The notes under the pieces were generated by a model that saw only the letters and a program-made list of their open reading frames with translations, made no database searches and was not told the DNA's origin. DNA of 64,000 nt, taken from assembly GCA_002841335.1 (NCBI GenBank), contig PHEY01000002.1, forward strand, positions 248,001-312,000, read 5' to 3'. Within the stretch, counting starts at the first letter, position 1, and the number at the start of each line of letters is the position of its first letter. Shown one piece after another: positions 5,189-58,397 of this stretch. A program made the position numbers and the translations under genes. Source of the DNA: Actinobacteria bacterium HGW-Actinobacteria-2. Its GTDB lineage: Bacteria > Actinomycetota > Actinomycetes > Propionibacteriales > Propionibacteriaceae.

Positions 5189-7317
5189 TGAACGTCGTTC
5201 GGCGCCGCGGTCGCGCCACCCGCCCCCCGGGCAAGACCATCGCTGTCGTCCTCAGCCTCGCGCTGGCTTCCTGGCTTCTGCCGGCCATGACCGCAGTAGC
5301 CGTTGACGAGGTCACGATTCCCGACGCGAACCTGCGCGCCTGCGTGTCTGCACAGTTGACCAAGGATGCGCTGCCCGCCGATTTCACCGCCGCCAACCTC
5401 GCCACACTGACCCACTTGGCCTGTCTGACGCCGGTGGCTGATCTCAGCGGCATCGAGGTGTTCGCCGGGGTCCGAGCCTTGAACCTCACCAAGGTGGCAA
5501 CCCCGGACGTGACCCCTCTGGCCTCACTGACCGGGCTGGCCAAGCTCTACCTGACCGCGCCGCAACTCACTGATCCTTCGCCGCTGTCTCGACTCACCGG
5601 GCTCGACTACCTGTATCTCAACGCACCTCAGGTCACCAGCTACGCCTTCGCCTCCCCGCTCATCAACCTCGTCACGGTGTACCTGACAACGTCCGAAACA
5701 GCCGATCCGCACGATCTGGCGCCCCTGACGAAACTCAAAGCGGCCCGGCTGAACATCAACGCCGAGACCGGCGCCAACGTGGGCGAGCTGAACGGTGCCA
5801 TCACCTTGAACCTCACCACAACCGCGTCGAACCTCGCCGGACTCACCCTTCCTTCCACAGTCCGATCGCTCATCCTGAGCGGCAAGAGCGTGACCAGCGT
5901 GGCAGACCTGCCGCACTCGGAGTCGATGGTCTCCTTGTGGCTCGACACCAAGGCACTCACCAGTCTCGACGGCGTCGATCAGGCGCCCAACCTCACCTTC
6001 TTGGCCGCCTCCAGCCTGAGCCTGAACGATGTATCGGCGCTGGCGGCCGAAGACCAGCTGACGAAGGCGCGGTTGTCCCACAACAAGATCACCTCGCTGC
6101 CAGACCTTTCGGGTCTGAGTCAACTGCGCGACCTCGACATCAGCTACAACTCGCTGACCAGCCTGGCGTCCCTGGGCGGCCTTGCCCTGACCGACCTCAA
6201 CGCCGAGCGCTGCCCCATCTCCTCCTTGGAGCCGCTGTCCGGGATGCGGCTGAACAGCCTCCGACTGGCGGGCGGCCCCGTGACCTCACTCGACGGGATC
6301 GCGAACATGGTCTCGGCCACAGCGGCAGTACACATCGCCAGCGGTCGCATCACGGACCCCAGCCCACTGCTCGACCTCCCGCCCGGAGTCAGCATCGCTC
6401 TCAACGGCAATCAGATCTCCGACGTCTCCGCGCTAGCGGACCTGTCTGCCGGAGTGACCGTTGATCTCTCCTACAACCGGATTCGCGACCTCAGCCCGCT
6501 TCCCGACGACGCCGCAGTGACGTTCGCGCATCAGGACGCCGGATTCATCACGGTGGACGCGGGCAAGCCGATCGACCTCGGCCTGCGGTCGATCACCGGC
6601 ACCCCGGTCTGTCCCGATGCCAGAACCGGGCTCTCCTGCGAGGCGGGCATCGCAACCTTCGCCGCAACCAGTGGCTTGACGTGGACGGCCGGCGACACCT
6701 TCTCGGGCCACGTCATCACAACCGGTTCGTTCACACCGCCGCCGGTGGTCACGCCGCCACCAGCGGTTCCGGTGCCGAAACCGTCCCTGCGGCCGAGCAC
6801 GGCACCACCCTGGCCACCAGCCGTCTTCTACGACATCAACTTCTCCCACTGGTCCCTCCTCCCGACCTCCTGGAGAGTCGACTGGTACCGGGACGGAACG
6901 CTGCTTCAGTCCAACACCAACACCGACCTCTACTCCTTCCACCAGGCAACGCTGGCTGACCTCGGCCACGACCTGACCGTCTGTGTCACGACCTACGGCG
7001 GGCTGACCCCAGGCCAGACTGGGTGCAGCGCCCCGCTGCGTCTGGAGCGGGGCGCCTTCCCGCCGATCCAAGCCAAGATCAGCGGGAAGCCCCGAGTAGG
7101 CAAATGGCTCTCCGCCAACACTGCGTGGGCACCCGCAGGCAGCATCAAGACCTACACCTGGCTACGCAACGGCCACCGCATCAAGGGCTGGACGTCGACG
7201 GTCTACCGGCCGAAGCGCTCCGACCGCGGCAAGCGAATCAGCGTCCAGGTGACCTGGCGCCATCCGGCGTACGTGACCGCGACCACCACTTCGGCGTCGG
7301 TCCGGATCAAACGCTGA
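5188..7317 (+). CDS. Secreted leucine-rich-repeat protein 1
   Basis: A 709-residue exported protein. Residues 1 to about 37 form a Sec signal peptide (basic start, Ala/Leu core, TAVAVD cut region). Then comes a short N-cap (VTIPDANLRACVSAQL) and many 20-24-residue repeats of the internalin/SDS22 type, for example LTGLAKLYLTAPQLTDPSPL. The C-terminal part holds a Pro-rich linker and an Ig-like module containing YTWLRNGHRIKGW, with a very basic tail. The same module recurs in the second LRR protein and in the Ig-like protein of this locus. No enzyme motif is seen. Surface protein-protein binding is the likely role. No LPXTG motif or C-terminal transmembrane helix is present. Confidence 0.8.
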   Translation: MNVVRRRGRATRPPGKTIAVVLSLALASWLLPAMTAVAVDEVTIPDANLRACVSAQLTKDALPADFTAANLATLTHLACLTPVADLSGIEVFAGVRALNLTKVATPDVTPLASLTGLAKLYLTAPQLTDPSPLSRLTGLDYLYLNAPQVTSYAFASPLINLVTVYLTTSETADPHDLAPLTKLKAARLNINAETGANVGELNGAITLNLTTTASNLAGLTLPSTVRSLILSGKSVTSVADLPHSESMVSLWLDTKALTSLDGVDQAPNLTFLAASSLSLNDVSALAAEDQLTKARLSHNKITSLPDLSGLSQLRDLDISYNSLTSLASLGGLALTDLNAERCPISSLEPLSGMRLNSLRLAGGPVTSLDGIANMVSATAAVHIASGRITDPSPLLDLPPGVSIALNGNQISDVSALADLSAGVTVDLSYNRIRDLSPLPDDAAVTFAHQDAGFITVDAGKPIDLGLRSITGTPVCPDARTGLSCEAGIATFAATSGLTWTAGDTFSGHVITTGSFTPPPVVTPPPAVPVPKPSLRPSTAPPWPPAVFYDINFSHWSLLPTSWRVDWYRDGTLLQSNTNTDLYSFHQATLADLGHDLTVCVTTYGGLTPGQTGCSAPLRLERGAFPPIQAKISGKPRVGKWLSANTAWAPAGSIKTYTWLRNGHRIKGWTSTVYRPKRSDRGKRISVQVTWRHPAYVTATTTSASVRIKR

Positions 7318-7433: not shown

Positions 7434-7466
7434 GTTCACCGAGCCGCCCACGTTCGTTCATCTGGT
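7434..7466 (+). promoter_or_regulatory. PHO-box-like direct repeats before the first pst operon
   Basis: GTTCACC at 7434 and GTTCATC at 7456 are exactly 22 bp (two 11-bp units) apart, with a degenerate middle unit at 7445. This is the spacing of the actinobacterial PhoP box, which is built of 11-bp units beginning GTTCA. It lies about 80 bp before pstC-1, so phosphate-starvation control is inferred. It is weaker than the box at 55082. Confidence 0.5.
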
Positions 7467-7547: not shown

Positions 7548-8567
7548 ATGACTGCCATGTTGAGCACCTCCCTTCCGCGCGCCGATGGCGACGCCGCCAC
7601 CCCCCGTCGATTCCTCAGCCGTGCCTCGATCCCCGACATCGTCTTCAGCCGACTGGCCACCAGCGCCGGTGTGATCACGGTGTCGATCATGTTGGCCGTC
7701 GGACTGTTCCTGTCGCTGCGCGCGAGCACCGCGCTGCAGACGGTGGGCTGGTCGTTCCTCACCGAACAGCAGTGGTCGCCGGAGACCCACACCTTCGGTG
7801 TCGCCGCCGTCCTGTTCGGAACGGTCACCATCGCGGTGATCGCACTGGTGGTCAGCGTGCCGCTGTCGATCGGCACCGCACTGCTGCTGTCGGAGGTGGC
7901 CACCGGACGGCTGCGCGGCCTGCTGGTCACCTTGGTCGACCTGATGGCCGCCGTGCCCAGCATCGTGTTCGGCCTGTGGGGGGTGTACTTCCTGCAGGGC
8001 AACATCATTCCGGTCGCCAAATGGATCTCGATCTGGTTCGGCTGGGTGCCCTTCTTCGCGGTCACCGACGCCCAAGGCCAGCCGTTCACCGAAGCCAGCG
8101 CGTTCACGTCCTCGGCGTTCATCGCCGGCATCGTGGTCGGCATGATGGTGGTTCCCACCCAGACCTCGATCATGCGCGAGGCCTTCGCCCGCGCGCCGAT
8201 CGGTGAGCGCGAGGGCGCCTACGCGCTGGGCTCCACCCGCTGGGGAATGATCCGCGCGGTCGTCCTGCCGTTCGGCAAGGGCGGCATCATCGGCGGAATC
8301 ATGCTCGGCCTGGGACGCGCGCTGGGCGAAACCATCGCGGTGTACATGATCATCTCGCCGATCTTCGTCATCAACTGGCAGGTGCTCAAGACCGGCACCA
8401 ACTCGGTCTCAGCCCTGATCGCGCTGCGCTACGGCGAGGCCAGCGAGTTCGGCCTGTCGGCGCTGATGGCCGCCGGCCTGGTGCTGTTCCTGCTCACGCT
8501 GGTGATCAACTTCACCGCTTCCTCGATTGTTGCCCGCTCACGTTCTGGAGCCGAAAGTGATGACTGA
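7548..8567 (+). CDS. pstC: Phosphate ABC transporter permease PstC (surface locus copy)
   Basis: Inner-membrane subunit of a PstSCAB-type phosphate importer. It has 339 residues, an N-terminal transmembrane segment near 35-60 and a BPD_transp_1 permease domain. The family motif LVDLMAAVPSIVFGLWGVYF is present. The cytoplasmic EAA loop is at about 206-262 (GAYALGSTRWGMI, then GLGRALGET). ATG 7548 has GGGGGAG five bases upstream. The stop overlaps pstA by eight bases (ATGACTGA). A second, more ordinary pstC lies at 56350, and the two copies are clearly diverged. Confidence 0.92.
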   Translation: MTAMLSTSLPRADGDAATPRRFLSRASIPDIVFSRLATSAGVITVSIMLAVGLFLSLRASTALQTVGWSFLTEQQWSPETHTFGVAAVLFGTVTIAVIALVVSVPLSIGTALLLSEVATGRLRGLLVTLVDLMAAVPSIVFGLWGVYFLQGNIIPVAKWISIWFGWVPFFAVTDAQGQPFTEASAFTSSAFIAGIVVGMMVVPTQTSIMREAFARAPIGEREGAYALGSTRWGMIRAVVLPFGKGGIIGGIMLGLGRALGETIAVYMIISPIFVINWQVLKTGTNSVSALIALRYGEASEFGLSALMAAGLVLFLLTLVINFTASSIVARSRSGAESDD

Positions 8568-9825
8568 CGTCACCGAGCTTCTCCCCATCGACCCCGACAC
8601 CTTCAGACCCGCCACGCGCATGCCCGATCCCGGCGACACCCCCCGCGGGGCGCGGCGCAACGTCCGCGGGATGACCGCCCGGCAGCACTTCGACCTGATC
8701 GGTGCCGCCGTCGCCGGGGCGAGCCTGGCCACCCTGCTGTTCGGCTGGTTCGCGCCGCTGTCGGGAGCGATCGGCTGGGTGGTGGTGGCGTTCGTCAGCT
8801 TCCTGGGCCTGTACGTGCTGCTGGTCAGCCTGGACGCCGACCTGCAAGAGGTGATCGACCGGCTGACGGCCGTGCTGTTCGCCAGCGCGGGAGTGGTGCT
8901 GTTCGGGGCGCTGGCCTTCATCGTGGTCTACACCCTGACTCGTGGGCTGGACGCGCTCACCCACACCAACTTCTTCACCCAGACCATGCAGTTCGCCGGG
9001 CCACTGGACCCGCTGACCACCGGCGGGATCATCCACGCCATCGTCGGCACGCTGATCCAGATCGCCATCGCCTTGGCGATCGCGGTCCCGCTGGGTATCG
9101 GCACCGCTGTCTTCCTCAACGAAGTCGGCGGACGCTTCGCCCGCTTCGTCCGCACGGTCTCGGACGCGATGACCGCGCTGCCCTCGATCGTGGCCGGGCT
9201 GTTCGTCTACGCCGCGGTGATCCAGGGCGTCACCCACGAGCGTTCCGGCCTGGCCGCGGGCATCGCGATCACCGTGATGATGCTCCCGATCATCATTCGT
9301 TCCGCCGACGTGGTGCTCCGCCTGGTGCCGGGCAACTTGCGCGAAGCGTCCTACGGGCTGGGCGCCTCCCGCTGGCGCACCGTGTGGCACGTGGTGCTGC
9401 CGACTGCCCGCTCCGGCCTGGTCACCTCGGTGATCCTGGGCACCGCGCGCGGCATCGGCGAGACCAGCCCCGTGCTGCTCACTTCCGGGGTGACCGCAGC
9501 GATGAACACCAACCCGCTGTCCGGTCCGATGATCTCGCTGCCGCTGCAGGTCTTCGACTTCGTCCGCTCGCCGGAGCCGTCCATGGTGGCCCGGGGCTTC
9601 GGGGCTGCCGCCGTGCTGCTGGTGCTGGTGCTGGGTTTGTTCATGCTGGCCCGCACGCTGGGCGGACGGGCGCCGGGGGACCTGTCCGCTCGCCAGCGGC
9701 GAGCCGTCCAGGCCGCTTCGCGTCGCGACGTCCAACGCTTCGCGGCTCGCCACGCCCCGGCTGCGGTGGCTCAGCCCACCCTGCCCGACGCCCCGGCTCG
9801 CGCCACCCAAGGAGATCCTTCGTGA
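8560..9825 (+). CDS. pstA: Phosphate ABC transporter permease PstA (surface locus copy)
   Basis: Second membrane subunit of the importer, 421 residues. Two or three extra N-terminal helices precede the permease domain, as in other actinobacterial PstA. The motif VSDAMTALPSIVAGLFVYA and the EAA loop ASYGLGASRWRTVWHVVLP (about residue 262) followed by GIGETSPVL are clear. A basic, Ala/Pro-rich tail of about 50 residues (from RTLGGRAPGD) is unusual. The ATG at 8560 overlaps the pstC stop, and its own TGA overlaps the next gene's GTG. Confidence 0.92.
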   Translation: MTDVTELLPIDPDTFRPATRMPDPGDTPRGARRNVRGMTARQHFDLIGAAVAGASLATLLFGWFAPLSGAIGWVVVAFVSFLGLYVLLVSLDADLQEVIDRLTAVLFASAGVVLFGALAFIVVYTLTRGLDALTHTNFFTQTMQFAGPLDPLTTGGIIHAIVGTLIQIAIALAIAVPLGIGTAVFLNEVGGRFARFVRTVSDAMTALPSIVAGLFVYAAVIQGVTHERSGLAAGIAITVMMLPIIIRSADVVLRLVPGNLREASYGLGASRWRTVWHVVLPTARSGLVTSVILGTARGIGETSPVLLTSGVTAAMNTNPLSGPMISLPLQVFDFVRSPEPSMVARGFGAAAVLLVLVLGLFMLARTLGGRAPGDLSARQRRAVQAASRRDVQRFAARHAPAAVAQPTLPDAPARATQGDPS

Positions 9826-11435
9826 TTCGCAAGACCCTGCTCGCCGTCGTCTCCCTGAGTCTGTTGACGCTCTCGGCCCTTGCCGGCGGCTCAGCAACCA
9901 CTGCCCACGCCGACACCTACTTCCCGATCACCGGGACGGGGTCGACCTGGTCGCAGAACGCACTGGATCAGTGGCGGGCGAACGTGGCCAAGAACTACGG
10001 CATGCAGGTGAACTACTCCGGCACCGGGTCCTCCCAGGGACGCCGCGACTTCATCGCCGGCACCGTCGACTTCGCAATCTCCGAGATCCCCTTCCAGGCC
10101 AAACCCGAGGACGGATCGCCGCCGGAGAGCCCGTCGGTGGACTACGCCTACCTGCCGATCGTGGCCGGTGGCACCAGCTTCATGTACAACCTGAAGATCA
10201 ACGGCAAGCGGGTGACCAACCTGCGGCTGTCCGGCGCCAACATCGCCAAGATCTTCACCGGCGCGATCACCAACTGGAACGACCCGGCACTGCAGAAGGA
10301 CAACCCCGGCCTGGCCATGCCGAACAAGACCATCGTCCCGGTGATCCGCTCCGACGGCTCGGGTACGTCGGCGCAGTTCACCTTGTGGATGAGCAAGCAG
10401 TTCCCGTCGATCTGGAAGACCGGAATGACCTCGATGTTCCCGTCCTTCGGGAACGCCAAGGCGCAGAAGGGCTCCGACGGGGTCGCCGGTTACGTCTCCC
10501 AGAACTACGGCGAGGGTGCGATCACCTACGTCGAGTACTCCTACGCCAAGAAGTCCGGGTACCCCGTAGCCAAGGTGCTCAACGCCGCCGGCTACTACGT
10601 CGAACCCACGGCCTACTCCGTGGCCGTTGCCCTCACCCAGGCCCGGATCAACACCGACAAGGGCTCTGCCGCCTACCTCACCCAGATCCTCGACGGCGTC
10701 TACAACGCCAGCGACTCCCGCGCCTACCCGGTGTCGAGCTACTCCTACCTGATCGTGCCCACCGAGGTGAAGTCCGGTTCGATCTTCAACACCAACAAGG
10801 GCGCCACCTTGGCCGCGTTCACCCGGTACATGTTGTGTGAGGGCCAACAGCAGGCGGCCACTCTGGGCTACTCGCCGCTCCCGATGAACCTGGTGCAGGC
10901 CGGCTCGGACCAGATCACCCGCATTCCCGGCTCCGGGGGGACGGGCATCGACACCAGCAAGTGCAACAACCCCACCTTCAAAGCCGGTGACTCGCCGACG
11001 AAGAACCAGTTGGCGAAGATCGCGCCCTACCCGGCCGCCTGTGACAAGGAAGGCGCCAACCAGTGCACGACCGGCACCGGCGGTGCGGGTCAGGATACCC
11101 CGACCACCGGCAGCGGCACCGGCGGGTCGGCGAACAACACCCCCGGCACCACCCCGAGCACAAGCACCGGAAGCGGGAGCGGAACGGGAACCGGGAGCGG
11201 GACGACGCCGACCTCCGGTGGCGCCCCCGTGGTGGACGAGAACGGCAACGTGCTGTCCACCACCACCTCCGGCACCGGCCAGGCCGTCGCCACGCCGTTC
11301 ACCCTGCCGGCGCAAGGCGTGGGTGTGTCCCAGTGGCTGATGCTCGCCGCCGCACTCGGACTGATCGCTGCGGTGGTGCTGCCGCCGCTGCTCCTCCAAC
11401 GACTGCGGGCTGGCGGTGAGGGTGGCAATGCGTAG
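9822..11435 (+). CDS. pstS: Membrane-anchored PstS-like phosphate-binding protein
   Basis: Extracellular substrate-binding protein, 537 residues. GTG 9822 is preceded by a perfect AAGGAG and overlaps the pstA stop. There is a signal peptide (about 1-30) and then a PstS-type domain. Its phosphate-site motifs are GTGSTW near the start, TGSSQGRRDF, IFTGAITNWNDP, and RSDGSGT near residue 176. Unlike ordinary lipoprotein PstS, no lipobox Cys is seen. Instead a Gly/Thr/Ser linker (about 420-490) leads to a C-terminal transmembrane helix (WLMLAAALGLIAAVVLPPLL) and a short basic tail. The protein should therefore be tethered by its C-terminus. Confidence 0.85.
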   Translation: MIRKTLLAVVSLSLLTLSALAGGSATTAHADTYFPITGTGSTWSQNALDQWRANVAKNYGMQVNYSGTGSSQGRRDFIAGTVDFAISEIPFQAKPEDGSPPESPSVDYAYLPIVAGGTSFMYNLKINGKRVTNLRLSGANIAKIFTGAITNWNDPALQKDNPGLAMPNKTIVPVIRSDGSGTSAQFTLWMSKQFPSIWKTGMTSMFPSFGNAKAQKGSDGVAGYVSQNYGEGAITYVEYSYAKKSGYPVAKVLNAAGYYVEPTAYSVAVALTQARINTDKGSAAYLTQILDGVYNASDSRAYPVSSYSYLIVPTEVKSGSIFNTNKGATLAAFTRYMLCEGQQQAATLGYSPLPMNLVQAGSDQITRIPGSGGTGIDTSKCNNPTFKAGDSPTKNQLAKIAPYPAACDKEGANQCTTGTGGAGQDTPTTGSGTGGSANNTPGTTPSTSTGSGSGTGTGSGTTPTSGGAPVVDENGNVLSTTTSGTGQAVATPFTLPAQGVGVSQWLMLAAALGLIAAVVLPPLLLQRLRAGGEGGNA

Positions 11436-13899
11436 CCGTCGCCGTCCCGCGCTCGCCGGGCTGGCCGGACTCGGGGTGCTGCTCGCGTCCGGGATGCTGG
11501 CGCTGGATCCGAGCCCGGCGCACGCCGAGGTGTCCACCCCGGCCGCCACCAGTTCGGCCAAGACCGTGTCAGCGTCCAGCTACGACCCCGATGTGGCTCA
11601 CGCACCGATGCCGGACCTGGCCGTCACGGTGTCGCAGACCCGCGACCTGATCCAGCAAGGGCTCACGGTGAGTTGGACCGGCGGAAAGAAGTCGACGATC
11701 CCCAGCCAACAGACCGGTGGCACCAACTACCTGCAGATCTTCCAATGCTGGGGTGACGACCCCGCCGACTCGACCCGTCCGGACCGCCGGACCTGCCAGT
11801 ACGGCGGACTGAACTCCGTCGGTGCGCGCCGCACGTCCACCCGCTCCAGCGAGGACGCCGTGGCACCGGAGGATCAGCCCTACACCACGATCAGCCCTGG
11901 CTGGTGGGAACCGACGCAGACCTCGATTCCGTTCACCTCGGCCACCGGCAAGACGCTGGCCCCGATCGTCGACCGGCAGAAGGTGACCGACCCGCCCGAC
12001 CTCAGCAACAACGAGTTCTATACTAAGTACACGACCAATGAGGTCAGCTGGGCCGGCTCCAGCACCGCCGGTGAAGGGTCGATCAGCTTCGAGCTGCAGA
12101 CCGATCAGCAATCACCAGGGCTGGGCTGCGGGCGGGCGATCAACCAGGGCGGCTCCGTCACCGGCCAGTCGTGCTGGCTGGTCGTCGTGCCCCGCGGCAC
12201 CACCGACGCCGACGGCGGCGACAACACCTCCTCGGGTCTGCTGTGGCAGACCTGGAAGCACCTGCTCGCCTTCAAGCTCGACTTCCGTCCGGTCGGCGTG
12301 CAGTGCAAACTGGGCGCCGCCGAACGTCAGCTCTCCGGCAGCGAACTGATCTCGACCGCGGTCGGGCAGTGGCAGCCGAAGCTGTGCAACGCCCGCGGTG
12401 GCGCGATCTTCTCCCTGCTCACTGGACCGGAATCGGACGCGGCCCTGGCCGCCAACGGCACCGAACCCGCACCACTGGCGCTCACCTCGCGGGCGCTGCC
12501 CTCGGGCACCACCGACAACCTGACCTATGCCCCGATCGCGCTCACCGGCCTTTCCATCGCCTTCGCCGTGGATGAACTGCCCAAGGCCGACGGCTCGGTG
12601 CCCTCCGACGTCCTGGCCCGAGCGCGGCAGCGACTCACCAACCTCAAGCTCAACCCGCGCCTGCTGGCCAAGCTGCTCACTGCGTCCTACACCGACGCGG
12701 TGCCCAGCGGAGCAGACAAGTCCCACCTGTCCGGGTCACGCAACCTGACTACCGATCCGGAGTTTCTGTCGATCAACGACAAGGAATGGCAGTACCTCGC
12801 GATCGCCGGCGTAGGAGTGAGCGACCTGCAGATGCCCTTGGGACGCTCCGACGCCGCCGACGCGGTGTGGCGCTACATCATGTCCGACCCGGCCGCGGTC
12901 GACTTCCTCAACGGGGTTCCCGACAAGTGGGGCATGAAGGTCAACCCGAACTACTCGACCAACCCGCGGGTGAACCCGGCGGGAGTCGGCATGACCTACC
13001 CCACCGACACCTTCCCCAAGGCGGACCCGGTGACCTACCCCGGCACCTCCGTGCGTCACTTCGCCGACGCGGTCAACCTGGTCACCTGGCGCCCCTACGC
13101 CAACAGCCTGGACACCTCCGGCTACCTGGTGTTGCGCGGCGACCCCCAGGCCCTCGGCCCGTGGGACGACATGGCCACCCCACCGAAGTTCAGCAAGGGT
13201 GATCGCGGCCTGATCGGCGAGCAGGCCGTCCTCGGGGTGACCGACACCGGCGCCGCAGCGCGGTACCAGGTGCTGCAGGCCTCCTTGCTCAACGCGGCCG
13301 GCGCGTATGTCGCGCCGACCACCGAGTCGATGAAGGCTGCAGGCGCCCTGATGACCGCAAACCCTGACCAGAAGCAGGTCGTCCAACTCGACCCGGCCGC
13401 AGCCGCGGTGACCACCGCGACCGCCGCCTACCCGCTCACCGTGCCCGTGTATGCCGCCGCGAACCCGGCGATGACCAGCGCTCAACTGCGCACGTCCTAT
13501 GCCGACTTCATCACCTTCGCAGTGACCACGGGGCAGACGCCGGGTACCGGTGACGGTCAGCTTCCTGAGGGCTTCGCTCCGCTGCCGGCCGCGTGGAAGA
13601 CCCAGGCGCTCGACGCGGCGAAGAAGCTCCGCACCGGCGTCGCCCAGCCCACGCCCAGCCCCAGTCCGAAGCCGAGCAGCGCACCGGCGGCCCCGGCGCC
13701 GTCGAACGCCCCGGCACCGTCACCGTCCACGCCGTCGAGCACCCCGACGCCGTCTCCGTCACCCACGCCAGGACCGGTGACCCCGGACGACCCGGCCGTG
13801 GGCGCCTACCAGGTGTTGATTCCCGCCGGAGCGGCGGTTGGTGTTTCTGCGGCCGTCACCGTGCCGTTGCTCGCTCGTTTCCGCAGGCGGCTTGGATGA
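11428..13899 (+). CDS. Large membrane-anchored protein with a PstS-like (periplasmic-binding) fold
   Basis: An 823-residue exported protein with a signal peptide ending near AHAEVS. The segment LTGLSIAFAVDELP followed by NLKLNPRLLAKLLTASYTD matches the hinge and TG-x-I-T-x-W region of PstS-type binding proteins. The strict RSDGSGT phosphate loop was not found, so the ligand is uncertain. The C-terminus is a roughly 50-residue Pro/Ser/Ala linker (PSPSPKPSSAPAAPAP region) and a transmembrane helix with an RFRRRLG stop-transfer tail. ATG 11428 is chosen for the GAGGGTGG upstream; the first eight bases overlap the preceding gene. It may be a second surface receptor or a scaffold. Confidence 0.65.
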   Translation: MRSRRRPALAGLAGLGVLLASGMLALDPSPAHAEVSTPAATSSAKTVSASSYDPDVAHAPMPDLAVTVSQTRDLIQQGLTVSWTGGKKSTIPSQQTGGTNYLQIFQCWGDDPADSTRPDRRTCQYGGLNSVGARRTSTRSSEDAVAPEDQPYTTISPGWWEPTQTSIPFTSATGKTLAPIVDRQKVTDPPDLSNNEFYTKYTTNEVSWAGSSTAGEGSISFELQTDQQSPGLGCGRAINQGGSVTGQSCWLVVVPRGTTDADGGDNTSSGLLWQTWKHLLAFKLDFRPVGVQCKLGAAERQLSGSELISTAVGQWQPKLCNARGGAIFSLLTGPESDAALAANGTEPAPLALTSRALPSGTTDNLTYAPIALTGLSIAFAVDELPKADGSVPSDVLARARQRLTNLKLNPRLLAKLLTASYTDAVPSGADKSHLSGSRNLTTDPEFLSINDKEWQYLAIAGVGVSDLQMPLGRSDAADAVWRYIMSDPAAVDFLNGVPDKWGMKVNPNYSTNPRVNPAGVGMTYPTDTFPKADPVTYPGTSVRHFADAVNLVTWRPYANSLDTSGYLVLRGDPQALGPWDDMATPPKFSKGDRGLIGEQAVLGVTDTGAAARYQVLQASLLNAAGAYVAPTTESMKAAGALMTANPDQKQVVQLDPAAAAVTTATAAYPLTVPVYAAANPAMTSAQLRTSYADFITFAVTTGQTPGTGDGQLPEGFAPLPAAWKTQALDAAKKLRTGVAQPTPSPSPKPSSAPAAPAPSNAPAPSPSTPSSTPTPSPSPTPGPVTPDDPAVGAYQVLIPAGAAVGVSAAVTVPLLARFRRRLG

Positions 13900-13919
13900 G
13901 CGCGCAGAAGACAGATTTC

Positions 13920-13955
13920 GGGGCGGGGTTCACATTGCCACGATCCCCCCGCCCC
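13920..13955 (+). terminator. GC hairpin between two binding-protein genes
   Basis: GGGGCGGGG (13920-13928) pairs perfectly with CCCCGCCCC (13947-13955) around an 18-base loop that contains GTTCACA. It starts 20 bp after a stop codon and ends 56 bp before the next start. It could attenuate read-through or protect the upstream mRNA end, so that the secreted binding protein is expressed at a different level. Confidence 0.4.
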
Positions 13956-14011
13956 GTGGACCGGCCGCGACCGCGGCAGGCCCCGCATTGCAAGGAAAGG
14001 ATCCTTACCCA

Positions 14012-15109
14012 ATGAAACTTACCAAGCCTTTGGTTCTCGGGCTGGCGGCAGGGCTGGCCGTGACGGCACTCGCCGTCGGCGCCCCCGCATTCTCCGATCC
14101 GGTCTCGAACAGCTACGTCCTGGTCGGTTCCGACACTCTGCAGGACTCCGCCAATGCCCTGGTCAACGGCACCGACGTCACCGGCGCCCGGGTACGCATC
14201 AAGGCTGCCGGCGCGAGCCTGGCCAACTACGACGCCTTCCCCACCACCGGGGCCGGCAGCAGCATCCAGACCAAGCCGGGCGGTGTCTTCTTCCCCCGTC
14301 CGTCGGGTTCCGGCGCCGGCGTGAACGCCCTGAAGGCCTCGATCAACGGCACTACCTACCTCACCAGCGCCCAGGCGATCACCGGCCAGGTCGACATCGC
14401 TCGGTCGTCGTCCGGCCCCGGCAACAACGCCAACGACAACGGCCTGCTCGCCTATGTGCCCTACGCCCGTGACGGTGTCGCCTACGCCTACCGTGGCGAT
14501 GCGAAGCTGGCCAACCTGACCACCGATCAACTCAAGGCGATCTACCAGGGCACCCTGACCTCGGTCGACGGCGTGACCGTAAAGCCGCTGATTCCGCAGG
14601 CCGACTCCGGCACCCGCAAGTTCTTCCTCTCTGCGATCGGCGCGACCTGCGCCCTCACCGACGGCTCCTGCACCACCAGCGCCTTGGCCGAGAACGACGC
14701 CTCCGTGCTGAAGGAAGACGGCAACATCATCCCGATCTCCGCCGGTAGCTGGATCGCCCAGTCCAATGGCGTGGCCCCGAGCACCATCCCCACCGACGGA
14801 AGCGTCAAGCTGGGCTCGCCGGACGGCACCGCCCCGTTCAACGGAACCGGGACCAACCTGGTGCCGAACGCCACCTTCTACAACACCATCTACGGCCGCG
14901 ACACCTACCTGGTCGTCGAGCGCGCCCGGATCACCCCCGGCAACGGCAAGTACGACCCGGCCTTGTTCAACCTGATGGATCAGTCCTCTGCGACCAGCCT
15001 GACCAACTTCATCACCACTCCGGATGCTGCCGGTGCGGTGAAGCAGAAGTTCGGGTTCGTCGCCCCGAAGTCGACCGCGGTCATCTTCGCCTACGCGACG
15101 TTGTCCTGA
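14012..15109 (+). CDS. Secreted PstS-family substrate-binding protein
   Basis: A 365-residue exported protein with a signal peptide of about 30 residues (basic MKLTK start, Ala/Leu core). It has a single PBP-like domain with GSDTLQDSAN near residue 39, LTTDQLKAIYQGTLTSVDGV (the PstS-type TG-x-I region) and ADSGTRKFFL near 197, which sits where PstS has its RxDxSGT phosphate loop. It has neither a lipobox nor a C-terminal helix, so it should be free or bound through partners. The ATG at 14012 has AAGGAAAGG about 10 bp upstream. Phosphate or an organophosphate is the likely ligand given its neighbours, but this is inference. Confidence 0.75.
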   Translation: MKLTKPLVLGLAAGLAVTALAVGAPAFSDPVSNSYVLVGSDTLQDSANALVNGTDVTGARVRIKAAGASLANYDAFPTTGAGSSIQTKPGGVFFPRPSGSGAGVNALKASINGTTYLTSAQAITGQVDIARSSSGPGNNANDNGLLAYVPYARDGVAYAYRGDAKLANLTTDQLKAIYQGTLTSVDGVTVKPLIPQADSGTRKFFLSAIGATCALTDGSCTTSALAENDASVLKEDGNIIPISAGSWIAQSNGVAPSTIPTDGSVKLGSPDGTAPFNGTGTNLVPNATFYNTIYGRDTYLVVERARITPGNGKYDPALFNLMDQSSATSLTNFITTPDAAGAVKQKFGFVAPKSTAVIFAYATLS

Positions 15110-15138
15110 TCGTCGGCGACCAACAGAACAGGAAGCTC

Positions 15139-16557
15139 ATGAAGCTCAACAAGTTCCATCGCCTGGCTGCGGCCGGCGTGATTGCGGGACTACTCGGACT
15201 GGCACTGCCGGCCGCGCTGGTTCAGGCCGCCGACACCCCGTCGTTCCCCGCCGGCTCAGCCGGCGACGTGTACCTGGTGAACGGCAAAACCAACCAGGTC
15301 TACGCCGCCGGTAGCGAGCTGGCCTGGGACGAGACCCAGGGCGTGTTCCTCTCGGCGACCTCGGTGGCCTCGACGCCGGCCGATTCGGCCGCCTACGAGG
15401 CACTGCGGCTGCCGGCTCCGACCGACGGCGCGACCACCGCGACCACCTTCCTCGCGGCCCCCGGCCATGAGGCCACGGTGGCCGACTGGAAGGCCTACTC
15501 CGATCCGGTCCCGCTGAACAGCAAGGGTGTGCTGCTGCCGCAGGTCACCCCGTCCTACCAGGCCTATGGCGCTGGGCTCGCTGACGGGCTCGGTGCGCTG
15601 GCGGTCAAGGCGACCGGTGGCACCTACAGCCTGGGCGTCGCCTACCTCAAGGGCTCGACCGTGGTGAAGACCTACTACACCACGATTGCGGTCACCAGCG
15701 GCTCGGGAGCGTTCAAGTTCGCCACCCCGGGTGCGGTCAAGACCGCCAGCAGCACTGCGCTGGCCGCTGCACCGACCTCGTCGACGTTCGGCACCGAGGT
15801 GACGCTGACCGCGACGGTGAGCCCCTCGGCGGCCACCGGGTCGGTGGACTTCTACGAGGGCTCGACCAAGCTGGGGACCGGTTCGCTGGCCAGCGGCGTG
15901 GCGTCCTTCTCCACGTCCGCACTGACGGTGGGCAGCCACACCGTGAAGGCGGTCTACGCCGGTGACGACACCTACGCCACGTCCACCTCGGCCAATGCCA
16001 CGGTGACCGTGACCGGGGCGACCTTCACCGCCGCGACCCCGACCATCTCCGGGACGGTCTCGGCGGGCAACACCGTCACCGCCGTCCCCGGTACCTGGAC
16101 GCCGGCCCCGACCACCACCACCTACGCGTGGCTGTTGGACGGCGCTGCCATCGCCGGGGCGACCAGCCCCACCCTGGTGGTCAACGCCGAATGGGGTGGC
16201 AAACAGCTCGCGGTGTCGGTGACCGGATCGAAGAACGGCTACGCCACCGCAACCAAGACCTCGGCTGCCATCGCGGTGCCGAAGTCGAGCTTCACCAAGT
16301 CCAGCACGCCCACGATCAGCGGCACCGCGAAGGTCGGCAAGACCCTCAAGGCCAAGGCGGGCATCTGGTCCCCCACGGCAGCGTTCAGCTACCAGTGGTA
16401 CGCGAACGGCAAGGCGATCAAGGGCGCGACCAAGTCGAGCTACAAGATCGCGAAGTCCTACAAGGGGAAGAAGCTCACCGTGAAGGTGACTGCTTCCAAG
16501 GCCGGCTACGACTCCAAGTCGCGCACGTCGAAAGCGACCAAGAAGGTAGCCAAGTGA
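15139..16557 (+). CDS. Secreted Ig-like domain protein
   Basis: 472 residues with a signal peptide (about 1-31). An N-terminal domain of unknown type (about 32-200) is followed by a bacterial Ig-like domain (FGTEVTLTATVSPSAATGSV ... GSHTVKAVYAGDDTYATST, about 210-295). Two related Ig-like modules follow, one containing TYAWLLDGAAIAGATSPTL and the other YQWYANGKAIKGATKSSYKI, then a Lys-rich end. The last module is homologous to the C-termini of both LRR proteins in this locus. It lies 29 bp after the secreted binding protein, with AGGAAG upstream of its ATG. A structural or adhesive surface role is likely. Confidence 0.75.
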   Translation: MKLNKFHRLAAAGVIAGLLGLALPAALVQAADTPSFPAGSAGDVYLVNGKTNQVYAAGSELAWDETQGVFLSATSVASTPADSAAYEALRLPAPTDGATTATTFLAAPGHEATVADWKAYSDPVPLNSKGVLLPQVTPSYQAYGAGLADGLGALAVKATGGTYSLGVAYLKGSTVVKTYYTTIAVTSGSGAFKFATPGAVKTASSTALAAAPTSSTFGTEVTLTATVSPSAATGSVDFYEGSTKLGTGSLASGVASFSTSALTVGSHTVKAVYAGDDTYATSTSANATVTVTGATFTAATPTISGTVSAGNTVTAVPGTWTPAPTTTTYAWLLDGAAIAGATSPTLVVNAEWGGKQLAVSVTGSKNGYATATKTSAAIAVPKSSFTKSSTPTISGTAKVGKTLKAKAGIWSPTAAFSYQWYANGKAIKGATKSSYKIAKSYKGKKLTVKVTASKAGYDSKSRTSKATKKVAK

Positions 16558-16570
16558 GGAATGGTCAGGC

Positions 16571-17500
16571 TTGACGACCACCGTTGAAGCACGGAAGCCG
16601 CGGACGGGCACCCAGCCCGTCCGCGGACTTCCCGCGTCCCGTCTTACTCAACTCAGCCCCCGCGACCGGCTCCTGCAGGCCGTGCTGGTGATGGTTGCCG
16701 CCGTCATGATCGGCCTGCTGGTCAACCTCGCCGGGCTCAGCCAACTGCAACACACCATCGCCCAACAGAACCTCCGCTCGGGTTTCGCCGAGGCCCTGGC
16801 CGCCGGCACCGCGCCGGTCAGCGAGGGTGACGTCGACAACGTCCTGCTGACCGATGGCACTCCCGTCGCGCAGCTACGGATCCCTGACCTCGGCATCGAC
16901 GAAACGGTGGTCGAGGGCACCACCTCTGGCGACCTGACCGCTGGTGTGGGACACCGGCGCGACAGCGTCCTACCGGGCCAGGAAGGGGTCAGCGTGCTGC
17001 TCGGACGAGCCAGCGCGTACGGCGGACCCTTCGCCCGAATCGCCCAACTGACCCCCGGCGCCCTCTTTACGGTCATCACCGGCCAAGGCGAGCAACAGTT
17101 CCGCGTGCTCGACGTCCGCTACGCCGGCCAGAACGCGCCCAATGTGATCGCGCCCGGGGCGTCCCGGCTGGTGCTGGTGTCGGCGCGGGGCTGGCCGTAC
17201 ATGCCGTCCGGTCTGGTGCGGGTGGATGCCGAACTGGTCTCCAAGACCCAGCCCGCCGGTACCCGCCAGACCACCCCCAAGACCCTGCCCGCCGCCCACC
17301 GCGAGCTCACCGTCGACACCAGCACCGTGTGGATGTTGGTGTTCGCGCTGCAGTTCCTGGTCGTGGCCGAGTTGGGCGCGGTGTGGTCGTGGCGCCGTTT
17401 CGGCGGCGCGCGCACCTGGGTGGTGTTCACCCCCGTGCTGCTGTTGTCCGGGTTGCTGGTCGCCGACCAGGTGACCCGGTTGCTTCCCAATCTGATCTAG
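16571..17500 (+). CDS. Sortase-fold membrane protein lacking the catalytic His and Cys
   Basis: A 309-residue membrane protein starting at TTG 16571 (no better start in the 13-bp gap). There is one transmembrane helix at about 34-55, an extracytoplasmic sortase-like domain (about 95-225), and two C-terminal helices (252-274, 283-300). The class E-like sortase landmarks are recognisable: [30 protein letters not shown] and [14 protein letters not shown]. But the usual GHR motif is GRA (Arg146 for the catalytic His) and the usual LVTC is LVSA (Ala205 for the nucleophile Cys). The Arg of the active site (R217, LVRVDAEL) remains. Transpeptidase activity is therefore not expected; a scaffold or receptor role is inferred. 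Confidence 0.75.
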
Positions 17501-17511
17501 CTGGAGTCACT

Positions 17512-18411
17512 GTGACCTTGAACCACGACCTGCCCACTGAGCTGCTGCCGCAGACGCCGTATCGGCCGAGTTTCGCCGTAGCCGACGCGGCCACGGCGGT
17601 GATGCCCGCCGTCGACGCGGTCGGCGCCTCCTCGTCGCTGTCGGGGCTGCAGGCGAACAACATCTCGGCCTGGTTCGGCGACCATCTGGTGCTCGATCGG
17701 GTCAGTCTGGACATGTCGGCCGGTCAGATCACCGCCTTGATCGGCCCCTCAGGCTGTGGCAAGTCGACCTTTCTGCGCATCCTGAACCGGATGCATGAGC
17801 TGGTCCCGTCGGCATCGATGGCCGGTGAGGTTCTACTCGACGGGGACGACATTTACGACCGCAGCCACCGCCTGGTGGACGCCCGCAAACACATCGGCAT
17901 GGTCTTTCAGAAGCCCAACCCGTTCCCGGCGATGTCGATCTACGACAACGTCCTGGCCGGGCTGAAGCTCACCGGGGTCAAGGCCGGACGCGACGAACGC
18001 GACGGCCTGGTCGAGACCAGCCTGATTCGCGCCGGGTTGTGGAAAGAGGTGCGTGACCGGCTGCGTCAGCCCGGCGGCGGGCTGTCCGGTGGCCAGCAGC
18101 AGCGGTTGTGCATCGCCCGATCGTTGGCCGTGCAGCCCAAAGTGCTGCTGATGGACGAGCCGTGCTCGGCCCTCGATCCGACGTCCACCCGGGTCATCGA
18201 GGACACCATGCTCGAGCTGCGTCACCAGGTGACCATCGTGATCGTCACCCACAACATGCAGCAGGCTCAGCGGGTCTCCCAGCAGTGCGCGTTCTTCCTG
18301 GCCGCGCAGGGACAGCCTGGGGTGATCGTCGAACACGGCGACACCGAGGCGATGTTCGGCGAACCGCAGGACCCACGCACCTTCGACTACGTCAACGGCC
18401 GGTTCGGCTGA
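17512..18411 (+). CDS. pstB: Phosphate ABC transporter ATPase PstB (surface locus copy)
   Basis: Cytoplasmic ATPase that powers the PstCA permease. 299 residues: Walker [11 protein letters not shown]-loop [13 protein letters not shown] (typical PstB), signature [14 protein letters not shown], Walker B VLLMDEP and D-loop SALDPTST, H-loop [10 protein letters not shown]. An N-terminal extension of about 45 residues without recognisable motifs precedes the ABC domain and is absent from the second copy at 58398. GTG 17512 has CTGGAG upstream. The gene is separated from its permeases by five genes, an unusual order for pst. Confidence 0.93.
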
Positions 18412-18414
18412 GTC

Positions 18415-19200
18415 ATGGGTGTTGGGAAACTGCTGCACCGGTGGCACCGCGTGGGCACCACTTTGGTCACGGCGCTGGTCGTGATGGTGGTCACCGGCGG
18501 TGCGATCGGCGGACTCGCCGATGCCGCCGCGCAACGCACCAATGCTGCGGCCCGCGCGCCGATCCCGGTGGCCGAGGCCCCGGTGGAGGCGCCGGCCCCG
18601 CCGGCGGCGGCCCCGACCCAGGTCGACGAGCTGCCCCGTGACCGCATCGACCACACCTGGGCGGCACGGACGTCCGCGCGCACGGGCATCCCGTTGCGCG
18701 CCTTCCTCGCCTACGCCGCGGCCAGCCTGCAGCTGAAGTCCGAGACTCCCGGCTGCGGCGTCTCCTGGAACACCCTGGCCGGCATCGGCTACATCGAGTC
18801 CGGACATGCCAGTCACGGCGGCGCACGGCTGCTCGGCTCCGGGCACACCGACCGTCCCATTCTCGGCCCGGTGCTGGACGGCCGGCGAACCGGTCTGATC
18901 CGGGACAGTGATCGTGGCCGGTGGGACGGCGACGCCAACTACGACCGGGCGATCGGACCGATGCAGTTCATCCCCGGCACCTGGAAGCGGTGGGGTGCCG
19001 ACGCCGACGGCGACGGCGTGGCCGACCCCAACCAGATCGACGACGCGGCCCTGGCTGCAGCCCGGTACCTGTGCGCGTCCGGCTCGCTGCGCAGCACGGG
19101 CGGCTGGCGGGCAGCCGTCCTCTCCTACAACCACTCCGAGGAGTACGCCGATCGAGTCGCCGGGGCAGCCAACGACTACGCCGCCAAGGCCTCAGCATGA
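18415..19200 (+). CDS. Membrane-anchored lytic murein transglycosylase
   Basis: Cleaves the peptidoglycan glycan strand, often to make room for envelope machines. 261 residues: an N-terminal signal-anchor (about 13-34), an Ala/Pro linker (45-70), then a transglycosylase SLT-2-like domain. The likely catalytic Glu is E128 in GIGYIESGH. The family motifs RAIGPMQFIPGTWKRWG and DADGDGVADPNQIDDAA follow. It begins three bases after pstB stops and its TGA overlaps the next start (ATGA), so it belongs to the same operon. Confidence 0.82.
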   Translation: MGVGKLLHRWHRVGTTLVTALVVMVVTGGAIGGLADAAAQRTNAAARAPIPVAEAPVEAPAPPAAAPTQVDELPRDRIDHTWAARTSARTGIPLRAFLAYAAASLQLKSETPGCGVSWNTLAGIGYIESGHASHGGARLLGSGHTDRPILGPVLDGRRTGLIRDSDRGRWDGDANYDRAIGPMQFIPGTWKRWGADADGDGVADPNQIDDAALAAARYLCASGSLRSTGGWRAAVLSYNHSEEYADRVAGAANDYAAKASA

Positions 19201-19599
19201 GCGCCCAGACCAGCGGCGCGCCGACCCCGTTCGCCAACCGGTTCGTGTTGGGCCCGCTCCTGGGATCGGGCGGCTCATCGGCGGCCTACCGCGCCACCGA
19301 CCTCGTCACCGCAGGGACAGCGTCCGGCAGCCGGCAGTGCGGTCGCGGTGGGGGCGGTGGTGCAACTCGGGGTGGCCTCCGGCAGCAACGCGGTACCGGC
19401 GGTGAGCGGACTCACCGTGGCCGCCGCGTCGGCGGTGCTGGAGTCATCCGGCTTCACCCTCACCGACGCCAGCCGGGCGCTCAGTCCAGAAGAGATCGTG
19501 AGCGAATCCCAGCCGGCTGTCGGCACCCCATTGCGCCTCGGGGTGGCGGTCACTTTGGTGATCAGTCCCACGCCGACGCCGAGCGACACCCCGGCCTGA
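19197..19599 (+). pseudogene. Collapsed Ser/Thr protein kinase-PASTA gene
   Basis: The ATG at 19197 overlaps the preceding stop and begins a clear PknB-type kinase N-lobe (FANRFVLGPLLGSGGSSAAY, then RATDLVTAG, the glycine-rich ATP loop). After about 38 residues the kinase stops. From about 19325, in another frame, the sequence encodes the end of one PASTA domain (SAVAVGAVVQLGVASG) and one full PASTA unit (VPAVSGLTVAAASAVLESSG ... VAVTLVISP), ending at 19599. The catalytic loop, activation segment and transmembrane helix are missing. An internal deletion with frame change explains this best. An assembly collapse is a possible alternative. Confidence 0.8.
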
Positions 19600-19641
19600 G
19601 CAATGACGCAGATCGACCCACTTTCGCTCCGAGCTCGCGGC

Positions 19642-19657
19642 TGCCATGATTCACCCG
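19642..19657 (+). promoter_or_regulatory. Extended -10 promoter, leaderless start of LRR protein 2
   Basis: TGC-CATGAT (19642-19650), six bases, then GTG 19657, with no Shine-Dalgarno. It mirrors the first LRR gene's promoter. Confidence 0.55.
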
Positions 19658-21681
19658 TGAACAGCGTTCCGCAGCGTTTTCGCGCCACCCTCACCCGCAG
19701 CGTCTCAGCTGCCGCCGCCCTCACTCTTGCCGCCGCCTCGTGGCTGATTCCGGCCCAGCCGGCCGCAGCCGAAGACAGCGTCACCATCCCGGACGTCACG
19801 CTGGCTTCCTGCATCTCGGCACGCCTGTCCACCGAGTCGCTGCCAGCTGACTTCACCGCCACCAACCTGGCGAAGCTCACTCAGCTCAGCTGCCCGTCCA
19901 GCGGGATCGCCGACCTCACCGGACTCGACAGTCTCACCGGCCTGACGCGCCTCTCCTTGGCGACGACCACAGCGGACCTGAGCCCCCTGACGAGTCTGGT
20001 CGGTCTGCAGTACCTGGTCATCGTCGACTCCAACGTGACCGATGCATCGCCGATCGCCGCCCTGCCAAACATCACGCAACTGCTTGTCAAAGCGCCGCTG
20101 GTGACCAGCTACGGCTTTGCGCTCGGGCACGACAATCTCGTGCGCGGCAGCTTCGAGGTGCCGCTCGCCGACGATCTCGCTGATTTGGCCACGCTCCCCG
20201 CCCTGTCAGACCTCCAACTCATCAACCCGTCCGGGTCGGCGCGGGCCGCAGCCAGGACGCTCGTCGGCGTGACTCAGCTGCGCATCACCACCAACACCGC
20301 GGACGGCCTGGCGGGGCTCGACGTCCCGCCCGGTGTGACTCAGCTGTACTTGAACGGGGCGAAACTCACCGATCTGACCGGACTGAAGCCCAGCTCCGCG
20401 CCGGCTCACCTAACCGTGTCGGCCGCGCAGCTCACCAGCCTCGATGGCATCAACCAGCTGCCCAACCTGACGCAGCTCAAGACCTACGCCAGCGACCTGA
20501 GTGACATCTCCGCGATCTCCGGCCTCATCGACCTGGACAGTCTCGACGTGAGCAACAGCAAGGTCGCCGACCTCACCCCGATCAGCGGGCACACAACCCT
20601 GCGCACGCTGAATATCTCCAACACCGCGGTGAGCGACATCTCCGCGATCTCCGGCCTCACCGACCTGGACAGTCTCGACGTGAGCAACAGCAAGGTCGCC
20701 GACCTCACCCCGATCAGCGGGCACACGACCCTGCGCACGCTGAACATCTCCAACACCGCGGTGAGCGATCTCAGCGCCCTCACCGGGCTCCCGCTCACCT
20801 CCTTGAAGGCACCCTTCCTGGGCCTCACCGAGGTCACCGCCCTGGCCGGCTTCGGTCCGCACGCCACGGTCGAGCTTGACGGCAACCACATCAAGGACCT
20901 CAGCCCGCTCCCCGACGATGCCGAGGTCAGCATCGGCGTCCAGAGCTTGCCGGACTACCCGACGGCGACCGTGGGCACGCCCTTCGACTTCGGACTGCGA
21001 TCGGCCAACGGGCAGGCGCTGTGCCCGCAACTGCCCGCGGCAGTCCTCTGCACCAACGGCGCGGCGACCTATCCGGCCTCCGGCACCTACCGCACCGACG
21101 GGGGCAGCTTCTCCTTCACCCAGTACGCGGGACCGAACCGGACGTTCACCCACCCGTCGATCACCGTGCAGGGCAAGCCCGTGATCGACCTCGACATCTC
21201 GGTGATCACCGGTAAGTGGAGCCCGACGCCCACGGTCGCAACCATTCGGTGGTATCGCGACGGTGTCGACGTGACCCCGAGCGGAGCGCCGTCCTTCTAC
21301 AGGATTACCGCTGCCGATGTGGGGCACCGCATCAAGGCGTGCTACACCGCTTCGCTCGACGGCTACGACACCACAACCGCCTGCACGGCCCCGACGGCGG
21401 TCGTCAAGCCCAGACAGTTCGGCAGTATCCCCTCCCCCCGCCTCGCCGGCACCAAGCGCGTTGGGCACACCCTCACCACGGTGGCCACCGGGCCATGGGA
21501 GGAGGGCTCGGTGCGGCACTACCAGTGGTACCGAGACGGCAAGAAACTCCGTGGCGAGACCTCGGCGTCCTACCGGCTACGGAAGGCTGATCGCAGGCAC
21601 CTCATCAAGGTGCGCGTCACGGCGACCAAGCCCGGCTACACCACCGTGGTGAGGTACACCCCCAGCTACCGCATCCGGTAA
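19657..21681 (+). CDS. Secreted leucine-rich-repeat protein 2 (paralogue of LRR 1)
   Basis: 674 residues. A signal peptide (about 1-38, ending PAAAED) is followed by the same N-cap as LRR 1 (VTIPDVTLASCISARL against VTIPDANLRACVSAQL; both continue LPADFTA). SDS22/internalin-type repeats follow. Two of them form a near-identical 44-residue duplication (SNSKVADLTPISGHTTLRTL and its flanks, encoded at 20503-20766). The C-terminus has two Ig-like modules, the last containing YQWYRDGKKLRGETSASYRL, homologous to LRR 1 and to the Ig-like protein at 15139. The stop codon abuts the stop of the convergent GTPase gene with no gap. Surface binding function is inferred. Confidence 0.8.
   Translation: MNSVPQRFRATLTRSVSAAAALTLAAASWLIPAQPAAAEDSVTIPDVTLASCISARLSTESLPADFTATNLAKLTQLSCPSSGIADLTGLDSLTGLTRLSLATTTADLSPLTSLVGLQYLVIVDSNVTDASPIAALPNITQLLVKAPLVTSYGFALGHDNLVRGSFEVPLADDLADLATLPALSDLQLINPSGSARAAARTLVGVTQLRITTNTADGLAGLDVPPGVTQLYLNGAKLTDLTGLKPSSAPAHLTVSAAQLTSLDGINQLPNLTQLKTYASDLSDISAISGLIDLDSLDVSNSKVADLTPISGHTTLRTLNISNTAVSDISAISGLTDLDSLDVSNSKVADLTPISGHTTLRTLNISNTAVSDLSALTGLPLTSLKAPFLGLTEVTALAGFGPHATVELDGNHIKDLSPLPDDAEVSIGVQSLPDYPTATVGTPFDFGLRSANGQALCPQLPAAVLCTNGAATYPASGTYRTDGGSFSFTQYAGPNRTFTHPSITVQGKPVIDLDISVITGKWSPTPTVATIRWYRDGVDVTPSGAPSFYRITAADVGHRIKACYTASLDGYDTTTACTAPTAVVKPRQFGSIPSPRLAGTKRVGHTLTTVATGPWEEGSVRHYQWYRDGKKLRGETSASYRLRKADRRHLIKVRVTATKPGYTTVVRYTPSYRIR
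20503..20766 (+). repeat. 132-bp tandem duplication inside LRR gene 2
   Basis: Copy 1 (20503-20634) and copy 2 (20635-20766) differ at only three positions by eye (T/C in the CTCATCGAC word, A/G in CACACAACC, T/C in GAATATC). Each encodes two LRR units (44 residues), so the reading frame and the solenoid phase are kept. The identity is far higher than between other repeats of the gene, which points to a recent duplication. Confidence 0.9.
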
Positions 21682-56260: not shown

Positions 56261-56349
56261 TCCGCTGAAACCGACGGCGCCGGTGGGAATCATCCCGTCG
56301 GCGCCGTTGGTCGGCCTAGCCTTAGCACTACCTGCAGAAAGCGAGCCCG

Positions 56350-58382: not shown

Positions 58383-58397
58383 GAGAAAGAGACCCGC

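Follow-up and report, generated by a model that had tools for sequence, protein, structure and literature searches.

The locus described here lies in a 64,000-nucleotide stretch of contig PHEY01000002.1 from Actinobacteria bacterium HGW-Actinobacteria-2 (genome G000; 2.92 Mb, 98.58% complete); this whole stretch is termed the window. Positions 7548 to 19200 hold the genes of a Pst-type phosphate transporter interspersed with genes for surface proteins and for a sortase homologue without the catalytic His and Cys, hence termed the cassette and the pseudosortase. The cassette-type permeases are encoded by pstC (7548..8567; TIGR02138, 238 bits), which falls into a cassette clade in PstC trees, and pstA (8560..9825; TIGR00974, 227.6 bits), both scoring over the curated cut-offs. 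They are followed by sbp1 (9822..11435; TIGR00975, 222.8 bits, over the cut-off), which encodes a PstS domain, a linker of 148 amino acids and a C-terminal membrane helix. The next gene, big2 (about 11425..13899), encodes a large protein of strongly diverged PstS type with a membrane helix at its C-terminus, recognised by a weak TIGR00975 match at residues 611-733 and by an AlphaFold2 model. The sbp3 gene (14012..15109; PF12849 (PBP_like_2), E 6.7e-11) encodes a secreted PstS-like protein with an N-terminal hydrophobic stretch, in which no membrane anchor was seen. The ig product (15139..16557; PF16640 (Big_3_5)) is a secreted protein whose N-terminal region is conserved and which also contains immunoglobulin (Ig)-like repeats; it has homologues at the same place in relatives. 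The pseudosortase gene (about 16571..17500; PF04203, E 7.9e-12) has an uncertain start, 16682 being preferred by the gene caller; its product has a sortase fold and three hydrophobic helices. The set is completed by the ATPase gene pstB (about 17497..18411), for which TIGR00972 is the best-scoring family (336.6 bits, cut-off 343.2), and an accessory lytic transglycosylase gene (18415..19200; PF13406 (SLT_2), E 5.9e-8).

All cassette genes found by the profile searches are on the plus strand, and the gaps between neighbours, where these do not overlap, are no longer than 29 bases, with the exception of the 112 bases between big2 and sbp3. Hence two statements of the initial annotation hold, namely that pstC, pstA and pstB are split by five exported or membrane proteins and that the genes run the same way with overlaps or short gaps. 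A canonical pstSCAB operon is present as open frames at 55199-59177, as was also stated there; its perfect PHO box occupies 55082-55099. Upstream of the cassette, a repeat-array matrix detects a PHO-box-like operator on the plus strand (7434..7466) made of three 11-nucleotide units, the first and third of which match GTTCACC/GTTCATC. The intrinsic scan of the locus itself, with no promoter-like sites (0.7 expected) and seven terminator-like sites (4.5 expected), was uninformative.

The pseudosortase was found in 20 genomes of 96 relatives (E <= 3.2e-33; 23 matches including that of the window). The surrounding DNA was read for the loci of these relatives and for 80 loci kept from 370 relatives in a named genome collection. 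The main gene order in Propionibacteriaceae and Microbacteriaceae is pstC-pstA-sbp1-big2-sbp3-ig-X1-X2-pseudosortase-pstB, where X1 and X2 are two extra anchored proteins; other actinobacterial families have rearranged versions of it. The comparison of gene order had been set beforehand as a refutation of the initial annotation, and this attempt failed. Since the order is kept across genera, the locus is not a chance arrangement.

After removal of six repeated contigs, 96 loci with a called pseudosortase were available, 81 of them with at least 9 kb before and at least 2.5 kb after it. The content of these covered loci is mostly conserved: big2 was called in 80, sbp3 and pstB in 79 each, sbp1 in 77 and pstA in 69. 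Less frequent are X1 and X2 (62 each), ig (60), pstC (24), the transglycosylase (21) and a kinase (8). These counts come from a simple gene caller that missed some genes and from a sample biased to the closest relatives and Microbacteriaceae, and the low count of pstC is partly due to loci ending before this gene. The transglycosylase had been proposed to make room in the wall for the machine; called in just 21 of 81 loci, it is not supported as a core part. The pstA and sbp1 genes are same-strand neighbours in all 71 loci with a called pstA, as are sbp1 and big2 in 77 of 80. The next same-strand gene after the pseudosortase is pstB in 82 of 96 loci, or 80 of the 92 with enough downstream sequence, and tblastn places pstB there in two loci in which it had escaped the gene caller, L037 and L043. 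In L031 (7757-8541) pstB matches occur in pieces without a single open frame, which could be due to gene disruption or misassembly.

In a class-level sample of 197 genomes, 26 have pseudosortase matches of more than 250 bits. Weaker or partial matches were seen in G226 (217 bits), G223 (164), G153 (146) and G143 (97 bits, among the ordinary scores); the next best score after these four was 106 bits. The cassette genomes of the class sample all have at least two PstC proteins (26/26), against 16 of the 171 others. Similarly, all 20 cassette genomes among the 96 relatives contain PstC-family matches beyond that of the cassette: three matches in total were found in G003, which is 74% complete, and four or six in the others. 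The 76 relatives without the cassette have at most two such matches, except for two genomes with four. In the maximum-likelihood tree of PstC, 31 cassette rows are separated from 30 canonical rows by a branch with support 100/99, the canonical rows being mostly those with the highest family scores, so that they do not form a random sample, and some of them having long branches. Some genomes have two cassettes in addition to canonical pst genes (L037/L043 in G044, L039/L050 in G061, L044/L051 in G086).

The binding proteins of the cassette retain PstS features. Sbp1 can be aligned with PstS proteins of known structure, 1ixh and 1pc3 among them. Conservation of the phosphate contacts was counted in 87 rows (86 sequences, with that of the window counted again as the reference) at the contact residues as numbered in Escherichia coli PstS. 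The positions aligned with Arg135 and Asp137 contain Arg and Asp in 87/87 rows each, the position aligned with Asp56 contains Asp in 85/87, and further contact positions contain Ser in 84, Gly in 84, and Thr or Ser in 82 rows. The AlphaFold2 model of big2 (mean pLDDT 86.3) resembles PstS; a Foldseek search with it gave 36 matches at E <= 0.001 with PstS structures on top, and TM-scores by target of 0.69-0.78 in the first ten. The sbp3 family keeps the motifs VGSDT, DxARSS and QxxSGT.

The mode of attachment of sbp1 is unusual. A C-terminal helix is present in 78 of 86 sequences and a lipobox-like pattern in two; no lipobox cysteine was seen in sbp1 of the window, and the canonical PstS of the same genome has a lipobox visible by eye at its N-terminus. 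The linker has a median length of 148 residues, which is also the length in the window, and a range of 0-206, the low end coming from incomplete rows. Such a long linker would allow the receptor to range within the wall. X1 of the relatives has a C-terminal membrane helix and, in 20 of 21 proteins scanned, a WxLIP-like peptidoglycan-binding domain. The ig family shows weak WxL matches in 3 of 39 proteins (E <= 0.01), that of the window not being among them. The C-terminal tethers, the sbp1 linker and the WxLIP-like domain of relatives agree with the initial description of a surface-specialised Pst system.

The most unusual part of the cassette is its conserved pseudoenzyme. In the pseudosortase of the window, the catalytic His is replaced by Arg146 and the catalytic Cys by Ala205; the column of the catalytic Arg contains Leu215, with an Arg two columns on. 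The same pattern was seen in 115 aligned pseudosortases, which were picked by profile score and so favour likeness to that profile. The His column contains Arg in 112 of them, Lys in two and a gap in one; the Cys column contains Ala in 103, Ser in 10, Thr in one and Val in one; the Arg column contains no Arg (one gap), and an Arg lies two columns further in 60. His or Cys was not found within three columns of its catalytic place in any of the 115. All three catalytic residues are present in 10/10 comparison sortases, which are ten weak matches to the search profile. The AlphaFold2 model of the pseudosortase of the window contains the sortase barrel (mean pLDDT 85.0), and sortases make up all 50 matches listed by Foldseek. 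Judged by its sequence, the pseudosortase is non-catalytic, because the loss of His and Cys suffices alone, and the dead sortase of the initial annotation is thus confirmed. The uniformity of the His-to-Arg change argues for selection, not decay. The closest NCBIfam match is the class E sortase, at 49.2 bits, far under the cut-off of 160; the pseudosortase shares the fold and differs in the absent catalytic His and Cys (115/115), in the lack of Arg in its column and in two extra C-terminal hydrophobic helices. The sortase fold thereby gains a conserved pseudoenzyme, and genomes with a cassette locus should not be credited with an active extra sortase.

Sortases cleave at the Thr of a sorting signal. 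LPxTG/LAxTG anchoring was considered as a general rule for the binding proteins and rejected, full motifs being rare (L[PA]xTG in 5 of 84 sbp1 proteins). A relaxed motif, L[PA]xxG, stands directly before the helix in 40 of 64 anchored sbp1 tails from cassettes with X1/X2 and from the window (5.3 expected on shuffling), though it was picked post hoc from the tails themselves and the 64 rows are mostly from Microbacteriaceae. In the window it reads LPAQG. Among the tails of this set that have the motif, only five show Thr at its fourth place. The motif is absent from all 20 sbp1 tails of cassettes outside the X1/X2 set, and this sets a limit to the proposal that it is read by the pseudosortase.

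The operator was analysed with a matrix trained on canonical pstS promoters of 17 genomes, which contain GTTCACC-like repeats 11 nucleotides apart with 0-4 mismatches over two units. The units were picked by likeness to the PHO-box consensus. An upstream PHO box of two 11-nucleotide direct repeat units is described for pstS of Streptomyces coelicolor in PMC7866108. Among 31 cassette promoters (including L039, which lies inside an operon, and the near-identical pair L042 and L203), 16 score over the 95th percentile of the controls, 382 upstream regions from the same loci (Mann-Whitney p 1.5e-8). Only 0.8% of the controls score as high as the operator of the window, a result to be weighed with the fact that the matrix was made after a stricter pattern had missed this site. 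Microlunatus phosphovorus is a species of Propionibacteriaceae. In this organism, according to PMC6754071, GTTCACnnnnnGTTCaC is bound by PolR, a regulator proposed to respond to oxygen. The regulator in this bacterial family may therefore be either PhoP or PolR, and the signal possibly includes more than phosphate.

A reduced form of the system occurs in the family of G223, whose genomes are streamlined. The pseudosortase was found in 9 of 40 genomes of this family; one Pst transporter was detected in eight of these nine and two in G311. Pst and pseudosortase genes share a contig in seven of the eight single-Pst genomes and are on separate contigs in G292. The layout is divergent (L222, L233-L239): pstC-pstA-pstB-sbp1 run one way, and big2-pseudosortase, usually with sbp3, the other, so that the pseudosortase adjoins Pst genes in eight of nine genomes, G311 included. 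The sbp3 gene was recognised beside the divergent set in five of seven cases; the contig of G301 ends there, and G303 has an unrecognised frame of 852 amino acids. The pseudosortases of this family have Arg at the His place and Ser at the Cys place in 9/9 rows, and its eight full-length PstC rows fall on the cassette side of the tree (100/99). PHO-like scores range from 4.5 to 37, with no control for the lower G+C content. No match to PF01384 (Pit) was found in seven of the nine pseudosortase genomes, G303 and G311 being those with one, and none to PF02690 (Na/Pi) in any of the nine. In G223, G301 and G306 (97, 94 and 97% complete) the cassette-type Pst is the sole phosphate importer of the three families searched. 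These loci suggest that the smallest recurrent set consists of PstC, PstA, PstB, sbp1, big2 and the pseudosortase, usually with sbp3. The cassette type is present in many actinobacteria and is the sole phosphate importer found in a few small genomes.

We consider it probable that the cassette is a distinct actinobacterial Pst subtype with a tethered PstS that would span the wall and a non-catalytic sortase as its likely assembly partner. This reading draws on what can be seen in the sequences: which genes are present and in what order, a PstC of separate ancestry, the missing catalytic His and Cys, the conserved phosphate contacts and the PHO-box-like repeat. In the proposed mechanism, the cassette would probably be induced through a PHO-box regulator, and PstC, PstA and PstB would import inorganic phosphate as usual. 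The sbp1 receptor would be tethered by its C-terminal membrane helix and long flexible linker, with no lipid anchor. In the wall it would have big2 and sbp3 around it, joined in many lineages by Ig proteins or proteins that bind peptidoglycan, with phosphate presumably handed from one binding protein to another. The membrane-embedded pseudosortase would most likely be a non-catalytic scaffold holding partner proteins uncleaved. A more ambitious version, in which this Pst subtype is class-wide, the pseudosortase has changed from a cleaving enzyme into a membrane receptor gripping the sorting-signal-like tails of phosphate-binding proteins uncut, and a multi-protein relay carries phosphate across the wall, is offered as speculation and is doubtful as a whole.

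Several observations weigh against the proposed subtype. Nearly half of the cassette promoters (15/31) score under the PHO-box threshold, and L157, L159 and L161 are without signal. The two good units of the window are 22 nucleotides apart, not adjacent, and the strict pattern of two adjacent units fits there with five mismatches at best, 149 of 200 shuffles doing as well. Of the 115 pseudosortases, 62 have an Arg no more than three columns from where the catalytic Arg should be; hence this residue is less surely lost than His and Cys. In the streamlined family the assemblies are incomplete (77-97%), the importer search covered Pst, Pit and Na/Pi transporters only, and big2 (67-104 bits) and the pseudosortase (125-165 bits) are strongly diverged.

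The alternatives differ in substrate, in the function of the complex and in the place of the pseudosortase. The cassette could import a phosphorylated organic compound or another oxyanion through a re-tuned Pst-like pocket. The further PstC-family copies in all 20 and all 26 cassette genomes would leave this copy room to diverge, and big2 and sbp3 have indeed diverged strongly; however, the phosphate contacts of sbp1 are conserved, a PHO-box-like site is present, and in eight of nine streamlined pseudosortase genomes this is the sole Pst detected, so we give such a pocket little credence. For the same three reasons inorganic phosphate is favoured over an organophosphate as the substrate. The capture machine for phosphate or an organophosphate, as first proposed, is thus largely right in its surface-phosphate part and less likely in the organic one, and the suggestion that a second copy is free to do another job does not agree with the retained contacts and operator, nor with genomes where only this Pst type was detected.

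A phosphate sensor, or a surface complex for adhesion or display with transport as a secondary function, would fit the WxLIP-like protein of relatives, the weak WxL matches of the ig family, the Ig and leucine-rich-repeat proteins, and the Ser/Thr kinase with PASTA domains in 8/81 loci. Yet the permease-ATPase set is complete, and the display genes vary by lineage, whereas pstC-pstA-pstB, sbp1, big2, the pseudosortase and usually sbp3 persist; sensing and import are, besides, not exclusive. We regard a mainly sensory or display function as improbable. It is also unlikely, in our estimate, that the pseudosortase is a membrane protein of separate function merely travelling with the operon. Its position in the divergent gene set of the streamlined family would suit such a passenger, but it still adjoins Pst genes there in eight of nine genomes, and elsewhere pstB is the next same-strand gene in 80/92 loci.

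The proposed subtype shares with canonical PstSCAB, where PstS is a lipoprotein or periplasmic, the PstC, PstA and PstB proteins, conserved PstS contacts and a PHO-box-like repeat. It differs from PstSCAB in having a PstS tethered through a long linker to a C-terminal helix, another anchored protein of PstS fold, a secreted PstS-like protein, the pseudosortase, a separate PstC clade and, in the non-streamlined loci read, a pstB split from the permease genes. With the WxL/WxLIP cluster of Firmicutes, as described in PMC10599100, the cassette shares the WxLIP domain and C-terminal helix of X1 in relatives and the weak WxL matches of some ig-family proteins. In contrast to that cluster, it includes a Pst transporter and has an actinobacterial host, and no X1 match came up in the window or elsewhere in that genome. 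A literature search for sortase-associated Pst, inactive sortases and WxL-Pst returned no such description among the titles and abstracts listed, mostly of papers open without subscription. In two papers that mention both sortase and PstS (PMC9723661, PMC8863785), the passages deal with an ordinary PstSCAB beside an LPxTG-anchored phosphatase and with a lipoprotein PstS. This type of Pst appears to be previously undescribed. It would be a widespread second Pst architecture in which PstC has a separate ancestry, the receptor is tethered and a dead enzyme is conserved, and it offers a natural test of phosphate passage through the thick wall of monoderm bacteria.

The lineage of the window has lost several genes. 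In the close relative L033, X1 and X2 lie between ig and the pseudosortase, and the frame of the kinase is open. In the window, 13 bases separate ig from the pseudosortase start used here, with no X1 or X2 match; a search of the rest of the genome, made for X1 only, gave no match either. The kinase gene is a remnant with a large internal deletion (19197..19596, plus strand) between the transglycosylase and a leucine-rich-repeat gene; its two ends correspond to residues 1-38 and 447-539 of the kinase of L033 and are not in the same frame. The intact homologue is a Ser/Thr kinase with PASTA domains by Pfam. Two secreted leucine-rich-repeat proteins border the cassette of the window (5182-7317 and 19603-21681), and related proteins adjoin it in several relatives. 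Several Microbacterium loci (L120, L124, L129 and others) have a further sbp1-like gene just 3' of pstB. L155, a 3.4-kb contig labelled Stenotrophomonas maltophilia with a pseudosortase and pstB, is probably an actinobacterial contamination.

Possible RNA structures were considered in two gaps of the cassette. In the big2-sbp3 gap, four of the initial six loci gave a z-score below -2; this candidate was dropped because 64 loci were no better than controls (median z -0.99 vs -1.19). In the ig-X1 gap of relatives, for example L034, L037 and L089, a strong hairpin with a median stem of 16 bp and no T-run is located about 25 nucleotides past the ig stop codon. Stems of at least 10 bp occur in this gap in 89% of 53 loci, compared with 12-17% in three other cassette gaps. 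The hairpin may lead to higher expression of the secreted proteins.

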